From Fidelibacterota bacterium (lineage in GTDB: Bacteria > Pseudomonadota > Alphaproteobacteria > Rhodospirillales > Rhodospirillaceae), in NCBI GenBank assembly GCA_947475895.1, contig CANJMF010000002.1, positions 62,001-126,000 of the forward strand: a DNA stretch of 64,000 bases, given 5' to 3'. Every line of letters starts with the position of its first letter. The first letter of the stretch is position 1. The notes under the pieces are model-generated. The model saw only the letters and a program-made list of their open reading frames with translations, was not told the origin of the DNA and did not search any database. Both the position numbers and the translations under genes were made by a program. Shown piece by piece: positions 38,643 through 42,393 of the stretch.

Positions 38643-38670
38643 GGGTTTGTTAAAGGTTAACAAACCCTTT
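38643..38670 (+). terminator. Terminator-like inverted repeat after purA
   Basis: GGGTTTGTTAA (38643-38653) and TTAACAAACCC (38657-38667) form a perfect 11-bp stem with an AGG loop, followed by only TTT. It can end purA transcripts, but the short T-run also allows an operator role for the gene that starts at 38756. Confidence 0.6.
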
Positions 38671-38677
38671 AAACGCG

Positions 38678-38712
38678 TTGCGTTCCAAGGGGCTGTTCGT
38701 TACACTGCGAAC
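38678..38712 (+). promoter_or_regulatory. Promoter with overlapping palindrome for the kinase-like gene
   Basis: TTGCGT (38678-38683) and TACACT (38701-38706) are exactly 17 bases apart. A palindrome GTTCG-N8-CGAAC (38695-38712) covers the -10, so a regulator binding it would block RNA polymerase. The start codon is 44 bases further on. Confidence 0.5.
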
Positions 38713-38755
38713 GAGATCGGCAGAAGCCGGTTACAACTTTTAGGACTGTCGCGCC

Positions 38756-40903
38756 ATGGCCGAAGCGGCTGCGGACCTCAGACCATCGCCAGAACCTGTG
38801 CGTCCGGCTCCTAAGCCGGTGCTGGCAGGGGTTCCTGCTGCCGATCCTCCGGCGGCGGATACGACGGAGCCGGCACCAGCCGCGGCTCCGCAGCCTACGC
38901 CTGGCAGCGGTGGCTCTTTCATTGTCGTCCGCGACCGTTTCACGATTTTCTGTGACCGACCGATTCCGTCGCTCGATATGCCGAACGCGCTCGCGTTTGA
39001 AGTCGCTGATCGAAAGCAGGAAGGCCGTCCGCTTTACGCCTTGGTGTGCAAGCCCGAGATGCCGGCGCGCATCAGCGTTATGCGCGCGCTTAAGGGCCTC
39101 GAAATTCCGGCCGTGCTGCACATGGTCGATTGGGGTGTCGCCGAATGGCCGCCGGTCGATCGTAAGTGCGTGATCGTTATTTACCACCGGCCTTTGGGTG
39201 GCCGCGTGATGGAGTCTATGTCCGGGCAATTCAAGCGCATTCCCGATCACTTGTTTGCGCGCTCGGTCATCAAGCCCATCGCCGACGGTCTTGTGGAACT
39301 CGGCCAGAAGGGCATCGCGCATCGCGCGATCCGTCCCGACAATTTGTATTACATGGACGAACAGCGCACCAAGATGGTGCTGGGTGATTGCGTTACGGCG
39401 GTTCCCGGCAACGATCAGCCGGTCGTCCTCGAGACAATTGAATCCGGTTCGTGCACGCCTTCGGCGCGCGGTAGCGGAACCTATGCCGACGATATGTATG
39501 CCTTCGGCGCCAGCGTTTTGATGCTCGCGATCGGGCGCAATCCGATGCAAGGCGTTCCGGATATCGAAATTATCCGTCGCAAGATTCAAACGGGTTCATA
39601 CGGCGCGCTCGTGGGCGATGAGCGCATGCCTGTATCACTGATCGAATGTTTGCGCGGCATGCTCACCGACGACCCCGATCAGCGTTGGGCAGCAACCAAC
39701 ATCGATCTTTGGCTGAACGGAAAGCGCCTGACGCCGATTCAAGCGAAAGGCGAGTCCCAGGCCCAGCGTCCCTTCCGGTTCGCCGAGCAAGAATTCCACT
39801 CTATTCGCCCGCTGAGCTACGCCATGTACCAGCATTGGGACAAAGCGTCGCAAGTCATCAACGACGGCTCGTTGGAAGTTTGGATTCGCCGCGGCCATGA
39901 ACTTAACGATCTTGCCGACGGCATTGCGACCGCGATCAAAAGCACGGGCGCCATGGCCGGCAATAAAGCAGACGCCGACGACGTCATCGTCGCGCGCGTT
40001 CTCATGATGCTCGATCAGCGCATGCCTATCAGGTGGCGCGACTTTCGCGTTTTTGTCGAAGGCTTCGGTCAAGCGCTTGCGGTTGCCATGCTGCGCAAGC
40101 AAAAGCTGCAACCCTTTACCGACTTTATCAATCGCGAACTGTGGCGTCACTGGGTTCTGGCGCAGACCAAACATCTTCCGGACAATCAGCAATACGAAAA
40201 CGTCTTTAAAGATTTGAAGAACTATCTGCGCGATCCGAATTCCGGCGCCGGAATCGAACGCTGTGTTTATGAGTTGAACGAGTGGCAGCCGTGCATGAGT
40301 CCGCTCATCGAGGCGCAATACGTGATGGAAGTGAAGGGCGTGTTGCCGGCGCTTGAGTCGGTATCGAAAACCGCCAACACAAAGCTGTGGCCTGTTGATC
40401 GCCATGTCGCCGCCTTCTTGCGCGCGCGCTACGCCAAAGGGACCGGCACGCAAATCGATTCCATGAATGACTCTCGGCCCGACCGCGCAACGATCGGTAT
40501 GCTGAGCGTGCTGGCTATTGTGCAGCGGCGCTTAGGCCCTGAACTTTTGCATGGCCTCGCCATGTGGGTCGGCGGGCTCATGTGGCCGGTCATCAACAGC
40601 TATCAAAATCGCAACAAGAGCAAAGAGCTGGAAAAAGAAATTCCGAAGCTCATTCGCAAAGGCAGCTTGGCCGAATTGTTCATCTACCTCGACAATCCCG
40701 AAGAGCGCCAAAAGGATGCCGAGGGATTTGCGTGGGCGAAGGCGGAATACGCGGCAGCGGAAAAGCAGATTTACGATCTCGAACACGGTCAGATGGATCG
40801 CCAGGATTCGGCTATTAAAACGGGGCGTCAGGCCGGAACGGTGGTGGCCACCGTAATCATGTTCCTGACCATTCTCGTAACGCTCGTGGCGAAGCTGCTG
40901 TGA
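38756..40903 (+). CDS. Membrane-anchored protein-kinase-like protein, probable pseudokinase
   Basis: The 715-residue protein opens with a Pro/Ala-rich stretch (1-50). A kinase-like region follows: LVCKPEMPAR carrying a possible beta-3 lysine (Lys99), HRAIRPDNLYY at 189-199 in place of HRDxKxxN, LGDC at 209-212 in place of the DFG loop, and DDMYAFGASVLMLAIGRNP near 245-263 as helix F. The catalytic Asp of HRD is Ala191, so phosphotransfer is doubtful. Beyond about 340 comes a large helical region I do not recognise, rich in charged residues, and a single C-terminal transmembrane helix at about 690-712 (tail anchor). The next gene, 7 bases later, encodes a membrane protein. Function unknown; an allosteric or scaffold role is inferred. 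Confidence 0.75.
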   Translation: MAEAAADLRPSPEPVRPAPKPVLAGVPAADPPAADTTEPAPAAAPQPTPGSGGSFIVVRDRFTIFCDRPIPSLDMPNALAFEVADRKQEGRPLYALVCKPEMPARISVMRALKGLEIPAVLHMVDWGVAEWPPVDRKCVIVIYHRPLGGRVMESMSGQFKRIPDHLFARSVIKPIADGLVELGQKGIAHRAIRPDNLYYMDEQRTKMVLGDCVTAVPGNDQPVVLETIESGSCTPSARGSGTYADDMYAFGASVLMLAIGRNPMQGVPDIEIIRRKIQTGSYGALVGDERMPVSLIECLRGMLTDDPDQRWAATNIDLWLNGKRLTPIQAKGESQAQRPFRFAEQEFHSIRPLSYAMYQHWDKASQVINDGSLEVWIRRGHELNDLADGIATAIKSTGAMAGNKADADDVIVARVLMMLDQRMPIRWRDFRVFVEGFGQALAVAMLRKQKLQPFTDFINRELWRHWVLAQTKHLPDNQQYENVFKDLKNYLRDPNSGAGIERCVYELNEWQPCMSPLIEAQYVMEVKGVLPALESVSKTANTKLWPVDRHVAAFLRARYAKGTGTQIDSMNDSRPDRATIGMLSVLAIVQRRLGPELLHGLAMWVGGLMWPVINSYQNRNKSKELEKEIPKLIRKGSLAELFIYLDNPEERQKDAEGFAWAKAEYAAAEKQIYDLEHGQMDRQDSAIKTGRQAGTVVATVIMFLTILVTLVAKLL

Positions 40904-40910
40904 AATCGCC

Positions 40911-41429
40911 ATGAACAAAAGCCGCCTGTTCCTTTACGCGATCATCGCCATCCCCATCGGTCTCTTGATGATCCCGACAATGATCGTGCTCATGGTTGCG
41001 ATGATTCCGACTGGCGTTGCGTTCCTGATGGAGCGCGGCAAAGGCTATTACGGGGGCTTGACGGTGGGCGCCATGAATCTCGCCGGAACGTCGCCCTATC
41101 TCGCCGATCTTTGGTTCAAGGGGCATAACATTCCTGCCGCCGTTGGAATCATTACCAACGTATTCGCTTGGATGATGTTTTATGGCGCGGCACTTTTCGG
41201 CTGGGCTATTTATTCCACGACCCCGTCGATTGTCAGTGCATTCATGACCATGACGGCGGGCAACCGCATCACGGGCATGCGCGCGCAGCAGCGTGAACTG
41301 GTTCAGAAGTGGGGACCCGATGTTGAGTCGGTTTATGAACCCGACAAAGGCGCTAACGAGAACAATGAGAGCAGCCAAACATCAACGGCCGCGAAAATGG
41401 CGAAGGCCGCCGGCAACGGTAAGCACTAA
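40911..41429 (+). CDS. Small membrane protein paired with the kinase-like protein
   Basis: The 172-residue protein has hydrophobic helices at about 5-37 (two closely packed), 76-101 and perhaps 42-62, and a hydrophilic, disordered-looking C-terminal tail rich in Asn, Ser and Lys (about 130-172). It starts 7 bases after the kinase-like gene and must be co-transcribed. I do not recognise the family. Inference: the membrane partner of the tail-anchored kinase-like protein. It converges with rluD, 4 bases apart. Confidence 0.7.
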   Translation: MNKSRLFLYAIIAIPIGLLMIPTMIVLMVAMIPTGVAFLMERGKGYYGGLTVGAMNLAGTSPYLADLWFKGHNIPAAVGIITNVFAWMMFYGAALFGWAIYSTTPSIVSAFMTMTAGNRITGMRAQQRELVQKWGPDVESVYEPDKGANENNESSQTSTAAKMAKAAGNGKH

Positions 41430-41433
41430 CGCA

Positions 41434-42393
41434 CTAAATTCCGCTGAGCACTTCGTATAAGTACGCAAAGTCTTCGGGTAGCTCGCTTTCAAAACGTAAC
41501 CGATTCCCCGTCACGGGATGCGTGAACCCCAGCGTCGAGGCATGCAGGGCTTGGCGCGGGAACCCTTTCAAAAGTTTTCCGGTTTCCGGCGCGAGGCCCA
41601 GCACCGAGCGCGGCCCGCCATAAGTGCGGTCGCCGATTAACGGATGGCCGATGCTGGTCATGTGCACGCGGATTTGGTGCGTGCGCCCGGTTTTGAGGCG
41701 GCACTGAATGTGCGCCGCCGTCTTCCCGAATGTATCGATCGTTTCGAAATGGGTCTCGGCGAATTTTCCGCCTGGGACGAGCGCCATCTTCTTGCGGTTA
41801 TGCCGGCTGCGGCCAATAGCGCCGCGAATGAAACCAAATTTTGGATTGGGCAGTCCCCACACCAGCGCGTCATAGGTGCGCTCGATGGAATGATCGGCGA
41901 ATTGCGCGCTGAGACCCGTGTGGGCAGGTTCGGTTTTTGCAACGACCAGCAACCCACTTGTGTCTTTATCGATGCGATGAACGATGCCGGGACGTTTGAC
42001 ACCGCCGATTCCGCGCAAGCTTTCACCGCAGTGTGCGAGCAGCGCATTGACCAAGGTGTTATCGGGATTGCCGGCGGCCGGATGAACGACAAGGCCTACG
42101 GGTTTGTTGATGACGATGAGGTCGTCATCTTCGTAGATCACGTCAAGGTCCATGGCCTGAGGCAGCGGCGTCGCTTCCTCAGCCGGAGGAACGTGCACCG
42201 CGACAACTTGTCCTGCTTTTACCTTGGCGGCGGGATCGGTTTGCGCCTTATCATTCAAGGCAACCGCGCCGTCCTCGATCAGCGCTTTCAGACGCGAACG
42301 TGATAACGCAGGCAACGCTCCCGCCAGCCACTTATCGAGGCGTTGGCCGGTGGCTTCTGGGGGAACGGTGAGGGATGTGTCGTCGGTGTTCAT
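41434..42393 (-). CDS. rluD: RluA-family 23S rRNA pseudouridine synthase (RluD-like)
   Basis: The 319-residue protein has an N-terminal S4 RNA-binding domain (GQRLDKWLAGALPALSRSRLK, about 16-36, and beyond) and the pseudouridine synthase active site HRIDKDTSGLLVVAKT at 139-154, with catalytic Asp142. Full length and S4 domain point to RluD, which makes pseudouridines 1911, 1915 and 1917 in helix 69 of 23S rRNA. In many alphaproteobacteria rluD neighbours rpoH; here rpoH is absent and an unknown gene lies upstream. Confidence 0.9.
   Translation of the reverse strand: MNTDDTSLTVPPEATGQRLDKWLAGALPALSRSRLKALIEDGAVALNDKAQTDPAAKVKAGQVVAVHVPPAEEATPLPQAMDLDVIYEDDDLIVINKPVGLVVHPAAGNPDNTLVNALLAHCGESLRGIGGVKRPGIVHRIDKDTSGLLVVAKTEPAHTGLSAQFADHSIERTYDALVWGLPNPKFGFIRGAIGRSRHNRKKMALVPGGKFAETHFETIDTFGKTAAHIQCRLKTGRTHQIRVHMTSIGHPLIGDRTYGGPRSVLGLAPETGKLLKGFPRQALHASTLGFTHPVTGNRLRFESELPEDFAYLYEVLSGI

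Follow-up and report, generated by a model that had tools for sequence, protein, structure and literature searches.

Bacterial kinases and pseudokinases of several named types, taken here as they are described in PMC12599244, provide the closest described counterparts for a pair of adjacent genes, K and M, in a 64,000-nucleotide stretch (hereafter the window) from Fidelibacterota bacterium (Alphaproteobacteria, Rhodospirillaceae; GenBank assembly GCA_947475895.1, contig CANJMF010000002.1, positions 62,001 to 126,000, forward strand). The DLHK kinases and pseudokinases of Proteobacteria are commonly but not universally linked to helicases, have lost the lysine of the VAIK motif and carry an HRxxRP-type catalytic loop with an arginine; they keep the aspartate of the HRD motif and are described as lacking a membrane region (PMC12599244). 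MviN (MurJ; type ActPs3) of Mycobacterium contains a pseudokinase within a membrane protein that acts as a regulator and not as an enzyme; it is fused to a flippase, has wholly lost its motifs, and docks FhaA after phosphorylation by PknB (PMC12599244). EssB/YukC of type VIIb secretion is a transmembrane pseudokinase that serves as the scaffold of a membrane assembly, the GLW pseudokinases of Proteobacteria combine a C-terminal transmembrane region with loss of the VAIK lysine and carry GLW in the place of HRD, and the CP1 type is described as having no transmembrane region (PMC12599244). K is a tail-anchored bacterial pseudokinase whose catalytic motifs are lost throughout its family, and K and the membrane protein M were found in identical lists of genomes across a sample of the class. 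The two genes and the parts of K are placed in the window as follows.

38756..40903, + strand: gene K, 715-residue tail-anchored pseudokinase-like protein
38912..39730, + strand: kinase-fold (pseudokinase) domain of K, residues ~53-325
39320..39343, + strand: HRAIRPDN catalytic-loop motif, Ala191 replacing the catalytic Asp
39383..39391, + strand: Gly210-Asp211-Cys212 at the place of DFG
39767..40060, + strand: post-kinase module of K, residues ~338-435, with distant kinship to a module of other proteobacterial kinases
40196..40705, + strand: helical region of K, residues 481-650, with conserved GxGxER..Y, DRH, Q590 and W604 segments and no recognised relative
40835..40897, + strand: tail anchor of K, a membrane helix at the C-terminus (residues 694-714)
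40911..41429, + strand: gene M, 172-residue membrane partner, starting 7 bases past the stop of K

Kinase fold and loss of catalytic residues

An earlier sequence-only reading of the window had described K as a kinase-like protein lacking the catalytic aspartate and followed 7 bases later by a membrane partner, and the structure model, structure comparison and gene coordinates confirm this description. K has a bilobal kinase fold, with the WNK1 and WNK3 kinases as the closest solved folds among the matches listed, and its score against Pfam PF00069 (20.8 bits) lies under the curated cut-off of 31.7, which some relatives pass. Residue counts were made on 158 non-redundant K sequences out of 238 matches, after frames shorter than 400 residues and duplicates had been dropped. 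Aspartate occupies the HRD position in 0 of 157 sequences, where the residues are A (100), S (24), N (11), G (10), R (3), Q, T and C (2 each), and E, K and M (1 each); two divergent members, inspected by eye, have HRR and HRA, and the motif is HGA in a member from Azospirillum. Orthologues with an intact HRD were thus sought and not found among these 157 sequences, and loss of the HRD aspartate is a trait of the whole family, while conservation of the alanine itself, which the sequence-only reading had left to be checked, extends only to the 100 sequences counted above. At the position of the VAIK lysine (in register with Ala95), lysine is present in 1 of 156 sequences and valine or isoleucine in 132, and the commonest residues at the place of the glycine-rich loop are P-x-L-D-x-P-x-A. 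The C-terminal tail helix is present in 147 of the 158 sequences, with a median of 3 residues beyond it.

An active serine/threonine kinase is ruled out by the missing HRD aspartate and VAIK lysine. A lysine relocated as in WNK kinases was also considered and rejected: by simple spacing according to the WNK arrangement, and by inspection, the beta-2 position falls on Ala80 (154 of 156), with no conserved lysine. Several other positions are strongly retained, including His189, Asn196 and Gly210 (153/157 each), Arg193 (147/157), Arg105 (153/156), Asp246 (157/157) and the HRD arginine after His189 (135/157). Position 211 is aspartate in 108 and glutamate in 38 of the 157 sequences (146 together), and the residue preceding Asn196 is threonine in 68 and aspartate in 61, with no conserved acid. 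Judged by these counts, the residues of the catalytic loop are constrained though catalysis is lost, a pattern that fits a structural or ligand-binding role, with other chemistry also possible.

The window's own genome (100% complete) gives three matches to PF00069 at E <=10, namely K itself (7.7e-5), a UbiB recognised by its KFGQ and HADMHPGN motifs (0.0055), and a false match to a ParE-like protein (0.37); PP2C_2 gives no match in this genome at E <=1. Pfam searches of K returned no SelO or other enzyme family above chance, no helicase or DNA2-type domain and no MurJ-type flippase, and NCBIfam gave no SelO. A role in defence was rejected, as the PADLOC matches (MkoA at 1.9e-9, PD-T4-6 and mad6) are only at the level of the kinase domain, as are the two NCBIfam matches (MAD6 and LanL). 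A phage origin was likewise rejected, with no PHROG match at E <=0.01.

Co-inheritance of K and M

Among the window's own genome and its relatives (61 genomes), K is present in 53 and M in 50. In a draw of 192 genomes from across the Alphaproteobacteria (thresholds E <=1e-10 for K and E <=1e-3 for M), K was detected in 67 genomes and M in 67, and the lists are identical (Fisher 2e-53, which is not a true probability because the genomes are related). No genome among the 192 has M without K, and the extra copies of M found apart from K are in genomes that also hold the pair. All full-length matches in a wider phylum draw of 299 genomes are alphaproteobacterial; the C-terminal region of K was found in 11 of these genomes and M in nine, and the remaining two (G502 and G518) carry a divergent M beside K that is recognised by an iterated profile (E 1.9e-23 and 2.8e-12).

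M is present at all 69 K loci examined, which represent 67 genomes (G168 and G208 with two loci each) and leave out a K paralogue without M (L078) and loci that are fragments or have no K (L079, L080, L092-L094). It is the next gene in 67 of the 69; in the two exceptions, K is interrupted (L069) or the open frame of M begins inside K (L132). Another locus comparison leaves out L020, L021 and L069 as incomplete or interrupted. Across 64 named loci, some from the same genomes and with L155, L157-L159, L162, L170, L203 and L211 left out, the gap between K and M has a median of 4 bases, and 13 pairs overlap. At nine named loci no M lies near K, whose frame is full-length at eight of them and shortened at the ninth, and in the same nine genomes M is found elsewhere, with no K within the 1.5 kb fetched on either side. 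K and M are likewise unlinked and both kept in G246, so adjacency is not the sole reason for their co-occurrence. As minor support for the pairing, sequence distances of K and M are correlated (r 0.61 over 37 loci; partial 0.58; 0/999 permutations), compared with 0.21 for K and PurA and 0.27 for M and PurA.

The pair is retained in genomes of 1.4-2 Mb, and named holders of K include Novispirillum, Caenispirillum, Roseospira, Rhodospira, Pararhodospirillum, Haematospirillum, Telmatospirillum, Magnetospirillum, Paramagnetospirillum, Oleispirillum and Terasakiella. K is carried as well by five plasmid records of Azospirillum, two of which label it 'serine/threonine protein kinase'. In A. ramasamyi, where K has this annotation, the next gene, a 'hypothetical protein', matches the M profile at 9.6e-52.

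Variation in copy number was observed at several loci. The entire pair is tandemly duplicated at L131 (K, M, K, M), and L235 is a second K copy with its own M, beside a TPR-like protein. Divergent second copies of K occur at L078, L230, L232 and L233, that at L230 among TPR-like proteins and that at L232 (G175) by inspection near prs-, rplY- and pth-like genes. Two genomes of one genus, G072 (L227-L229) and G186, each hold four M genes and one K; for the extra copies in G072, the 12 kb fetched contain no K, and one copy lies by inspection beside a two-component-like pair. The lone M of G246 (L237/L262) lies, also by inspection, just after a ychF-like gene.

The region behind the kinase fold

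The sequence-only reading had called the large C-terminal region of K unrecognised, and this holds for part of it. Residues 330-650 give only chance-level matches against Pfam, NCBIfam and PDB sequences (e.g., 1 of 34 members matched TIGR03886 at 0.0034), yet the first ~100 residues are akin to a module of DLHK-type and other kinases, leaving residues 481-650 without a match either in those kinases or, above chance, in the libraries. In structure searches with the whole of K, the listed matches were filled by kinase chains. Positions in this region are nonetheless near-invariant, including Tyr505 (158/158), Trp376 (157/158), Glu501 (155/158), Asp548 (152/155), Arg502 and His550.

The K profile matches three kinases from other Proteobacteria with alignments reaching past the kinase fold, and through these the kinship of the module was recognised. 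One of them (L266) has 907 residues and intact HRD and DFG motifs; the other two (L267 and L268) exceed 2,000 residues, carry AVLT, HRDLRP and GFG motifs, and are classed as DLHK-type from these motifs and from their AAA helicase-type domains. When residues 330-480 of K were compared as a profile with the stretches behind these kinase domains, L267 and L268 gave scores of 36.5 and 35.5 and L266 a score of 29.3 (88, 89 and 108 columns), whereas the maximum among 200 random segments was 18.2 and none of 40 shuffles reached any of the three scores. Two further stretches of L266 were unremarkable (2/40 and 6/40 shuffles), the module profile found the three kinases only weakly by hmmsearch (E 0.048, 2.3 and 5.4), and the module has no curated Pfam name in any of them. 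Because the profile scores stand above the controls, residues ~338-435 of K are, on sequence comparison, a kinase-linked module with distant relatives. An internal duplication in the C-terminal region was considered and rejected, since residues 333-420 and 419-500 align over only 29 columns (probability 2%, E 0.024) and four other pairs gave nothing. By inspection, L266 (991-3711, - strand), from outside the Alphaproteobacteria, has several LA..L / W-type module repeats behind its kinase and hydrophobic stretches near its end. It may serve as a model of the protein from which K arose.

Comparison with described types

K resembles the DLHK proteins in its lost VAIK lysine and in its HRxxRP-type catalytic loop, in which Arg193 would correspond to DLHK Arg231, and it has in common with L267 and L268 the post-kinase module, which lies outside the published DLHK definition. 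It differs in having lost the HRD aspartate, in its tail anchor, in the absence of helicase domains, in the unmatched residues 481-650, and in its pairing with M. By sequence, the DLHK-type kinases appear to be its nearest named kin, and K has probably descended from a DLHK-like or neighbouring kinase lineage by loss of the aspartate and gain of the tail anchor. In contrast to the pseudokinase of MviN, with which it would have a regulatory rather than enzymatic role in common, K is a separate protein that keeps Asn196 (153/157) and Asp211 (108/157), and the only other kinase-like protein found in its genome is UbiB. EssB/YukC provides the precedent for the scaffold role proposed for K; however, K is longer by ~320 helical residues, extends past its membrane helix by a median of only 3 residues and has a partner in M, and EssB is not among the listed solved-structure matches of K. 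The GLW type has the C-terminal transmembrane region and lacks the VAIK lysine as K does, but K keeps the histidine (153/157) and arginine (135/157) where that type has GLW, and K is distinguished from CP1 by its tail helix.

By analogy, the pair would work most like EssB/YukC or the MviN domain, as a membrane pseudokinase scaffold. Set apart from the named types by their descriptions, K is classed as a new family among bacterial pseudokinases, one that is tied unusually strictly to a membrane partner. The statement of the sequence-only reading that no described system has this build agrees with searches of open-licence papers, which listed none on the pair; K may carry a family label in the kinase atlas behind PMC12599244.

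Proposed role and alternative explanations

Our preferred explanation, held with moderate confidence, is that K and M are the obligate partners of a complex in the inner membrane, in which K, of DLHK-like descent, is a structural or ligand-sensing pseudokinase that does not phosphorylate. K would be inserted through its tail helix, which is recognised from sequence and prediction, and would bind M through its membrane and juxtamembrane helices. M would be the membrane subunit, with its N-terminus and long C-terminal helix in the cytoplasm, and the pseudokinase and helical domains of K would face the cytoplasm as a docking platform. With the catalytic aspartate, the ATP-anchoring lysine and the glycine-rich loop lost across the family, the kinase fold may have been kept as a protein-binding scaffold; a pocket formed by Arg105, Arg193, Asn196 and Asp/Glu211 probably holds an anionic ligand or nucleotide that sets the conformation of the complex, and an anionic ligand in this arginine-lined pocket may switch K. 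The suggestion of the sequence-only reading that the two proteins are a membrane unit acting as a scaffold and not as an active kinase is supported by the lost aspartate and lysine and by the co-inheritance of the pair. A more far-reaching version, which we put forward tentatively, is that the pair is an old alphaproteobacterial membrane machine, with a DLHK-derived dead kinase as its strictly retained structural subunit, a domain of its own in residues 481-650, and a pocket that possibly serves a non-kinase ligand or chemistry.

Several observations weigh against the preferred explanation. Nucleotide chemistry would be equally compatible with the retained Asn196 and Asp/Glu211, and the HRD aspartate is present in the DLHK-type relatives. 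Of the columns conserved at >=95%, 16 lie in the kinase part (residues 53-325) and 13 behind it (residues 330-650), so the functional centre of K may be other than the kinase fold. No M is recognised next to the second K copies at L078, L230, L232 and L233, and M is present in three extra copies in each of two genomes, so that K and M are not always 1:1; the low correlation between K and PurA may reflect noisy distances.

Among the alternatives, it is hardly credible that K is a decaying kinase relic linked to M by chance: several catalytic motifs are indeed lost, but the pattern of constraint contradicts decay, with full-length conservation, near-invariant positions, retention in genomes of 1.4-2 Mb and a genome list the same as that of M. 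That the pair serves a conventional Hanks kinase/PP2C network as a phosphorylation-dependent adaptor is also very improbable, since the window's own genome has no Hanks-type kinase match beyond K, UbiB and the false ParE-like match, and no PP2C_2 match. A PF00069 match other than K (E <=1e-6) does occur in 26 of the 67 genomes holding the pair, some of these matches perhaps being UbiB, but none occurs in the other 41, which indicates that an adaptor role like that of MviN is not general. Somewhat less remote, though still unlikely, is that M is a transporter or lipid-handling protein and K its cytoplasmic regulator. The invariant in-membrane residues of M (Asn56, Trp68, Gly97, Pro33 and Pro105) are consistent with this, as is the combination of pseudokinase and membrane partner, which follows the plan of the MviN domain and its fused flippase (PMC12599244). 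However, M has only 172 residues and few membrane segments and gives no fold match below E 0.5 (best PDB match E 0.56), and the regulation described for MviN requires phosphorylation by an active kinase (PMC12599244), where only UbiB was found in the genome of the window.

The alternative to which we give the most room, while still thinking it doubtful, is that K works as an enzyme on M or at the membrane, through non-kinase chemistry sited in the degraded pocket or in the conserved GxGxER/DRH part behind it. The metal-site pair Asn196 and Asp/Glu211 and two near-invariant arginines are kept in spite of the lost kinase machinery, and Glu501, Arg502, Tyr505, Asp548 and His550 are near-invariant as well; kinase-like folds with other activities have been described in SelO, which AMPylates, and SidJ, which glutamylates (PMC12599244), and the DLHK kinases, to which K is related through the module, have been modelled with ATP held by arginines (PMC12599244). 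Against such an enzyme stand the absence of a conserved lysine or glycine-rich loop for holding ATP, the variable residue before Asn196, and the Pfam results, in which neither SelO nor any other enzyme family rose above chance.

Surroundings of the pair

Two features were recorded between purA and K in the window.

38643..38667, no strand assigned: inverted repeat between purA and K, arms of 11 nt and loop of 3, not common to relatives
38677..38706, + strand: promoter-like pair GTTGCG / TACACT before K, partly common to relatives

An alignment of 18 upstream regions contains a recurring GTTGyg / TAcaaT-like pair in many rows but not all, and a promoter consensus search upstream of K in the window gave no match. 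Of the upstream signals named in the sequence-only reading, the promoter pair thus persists in part, whereas the terminator-like repeat and the palindrome over the -10 are not common to relatives and were rejected as a regulatory signature. With these two signals specific to the window and no other Hanks-type kinase found in the genome, the words 'regulated' and 'signalling' in that reading go beyond the evidence. A GGCAGAA element downstream of the putative -10, present in the window (38717-38726) and in many relatives of the same genus (L002-L017), is possibly a transcript-start or leader element.

An rluD-type gene lies directly after M on the opposite strand (41434-42393, -). Across the 69 loci, genes near K (named by inspection, with flanks only partly annotated) are purA-like at 37, rluD-like at 31 (opposite strand), hisZ-like at 29 and rpoH-like at 27, the last on the opposite strand and at the second place after K in 25; an rpoH-type gene is absent from the surroundings of the pair in the window. 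With regard to linkage with type VIIb secretion genes, the recurrent neighbours recognised are those resembling purA, hisZ, rpoH and rluD; they are housekeeping in appearance and provide no clue to function.

Implications

K and M present a clean case for asking what purpose a kinase fold serves without kinase signalling, with a single co-inherited partner, and the pair offers experiments a well-defined target. For the K family as a whole, the label 'serine/threonine protein kinase' probably misleads. Since small genomes retain the pair, as do genomes in which no other Hanks kinase is detectable, it would, if the more far-reaching version above is true, be a core component of the alphaproteobacterial envelope to which automatic annotation gives the labels 'serine/threonine protein kinase' and 'hypothetical protein'.

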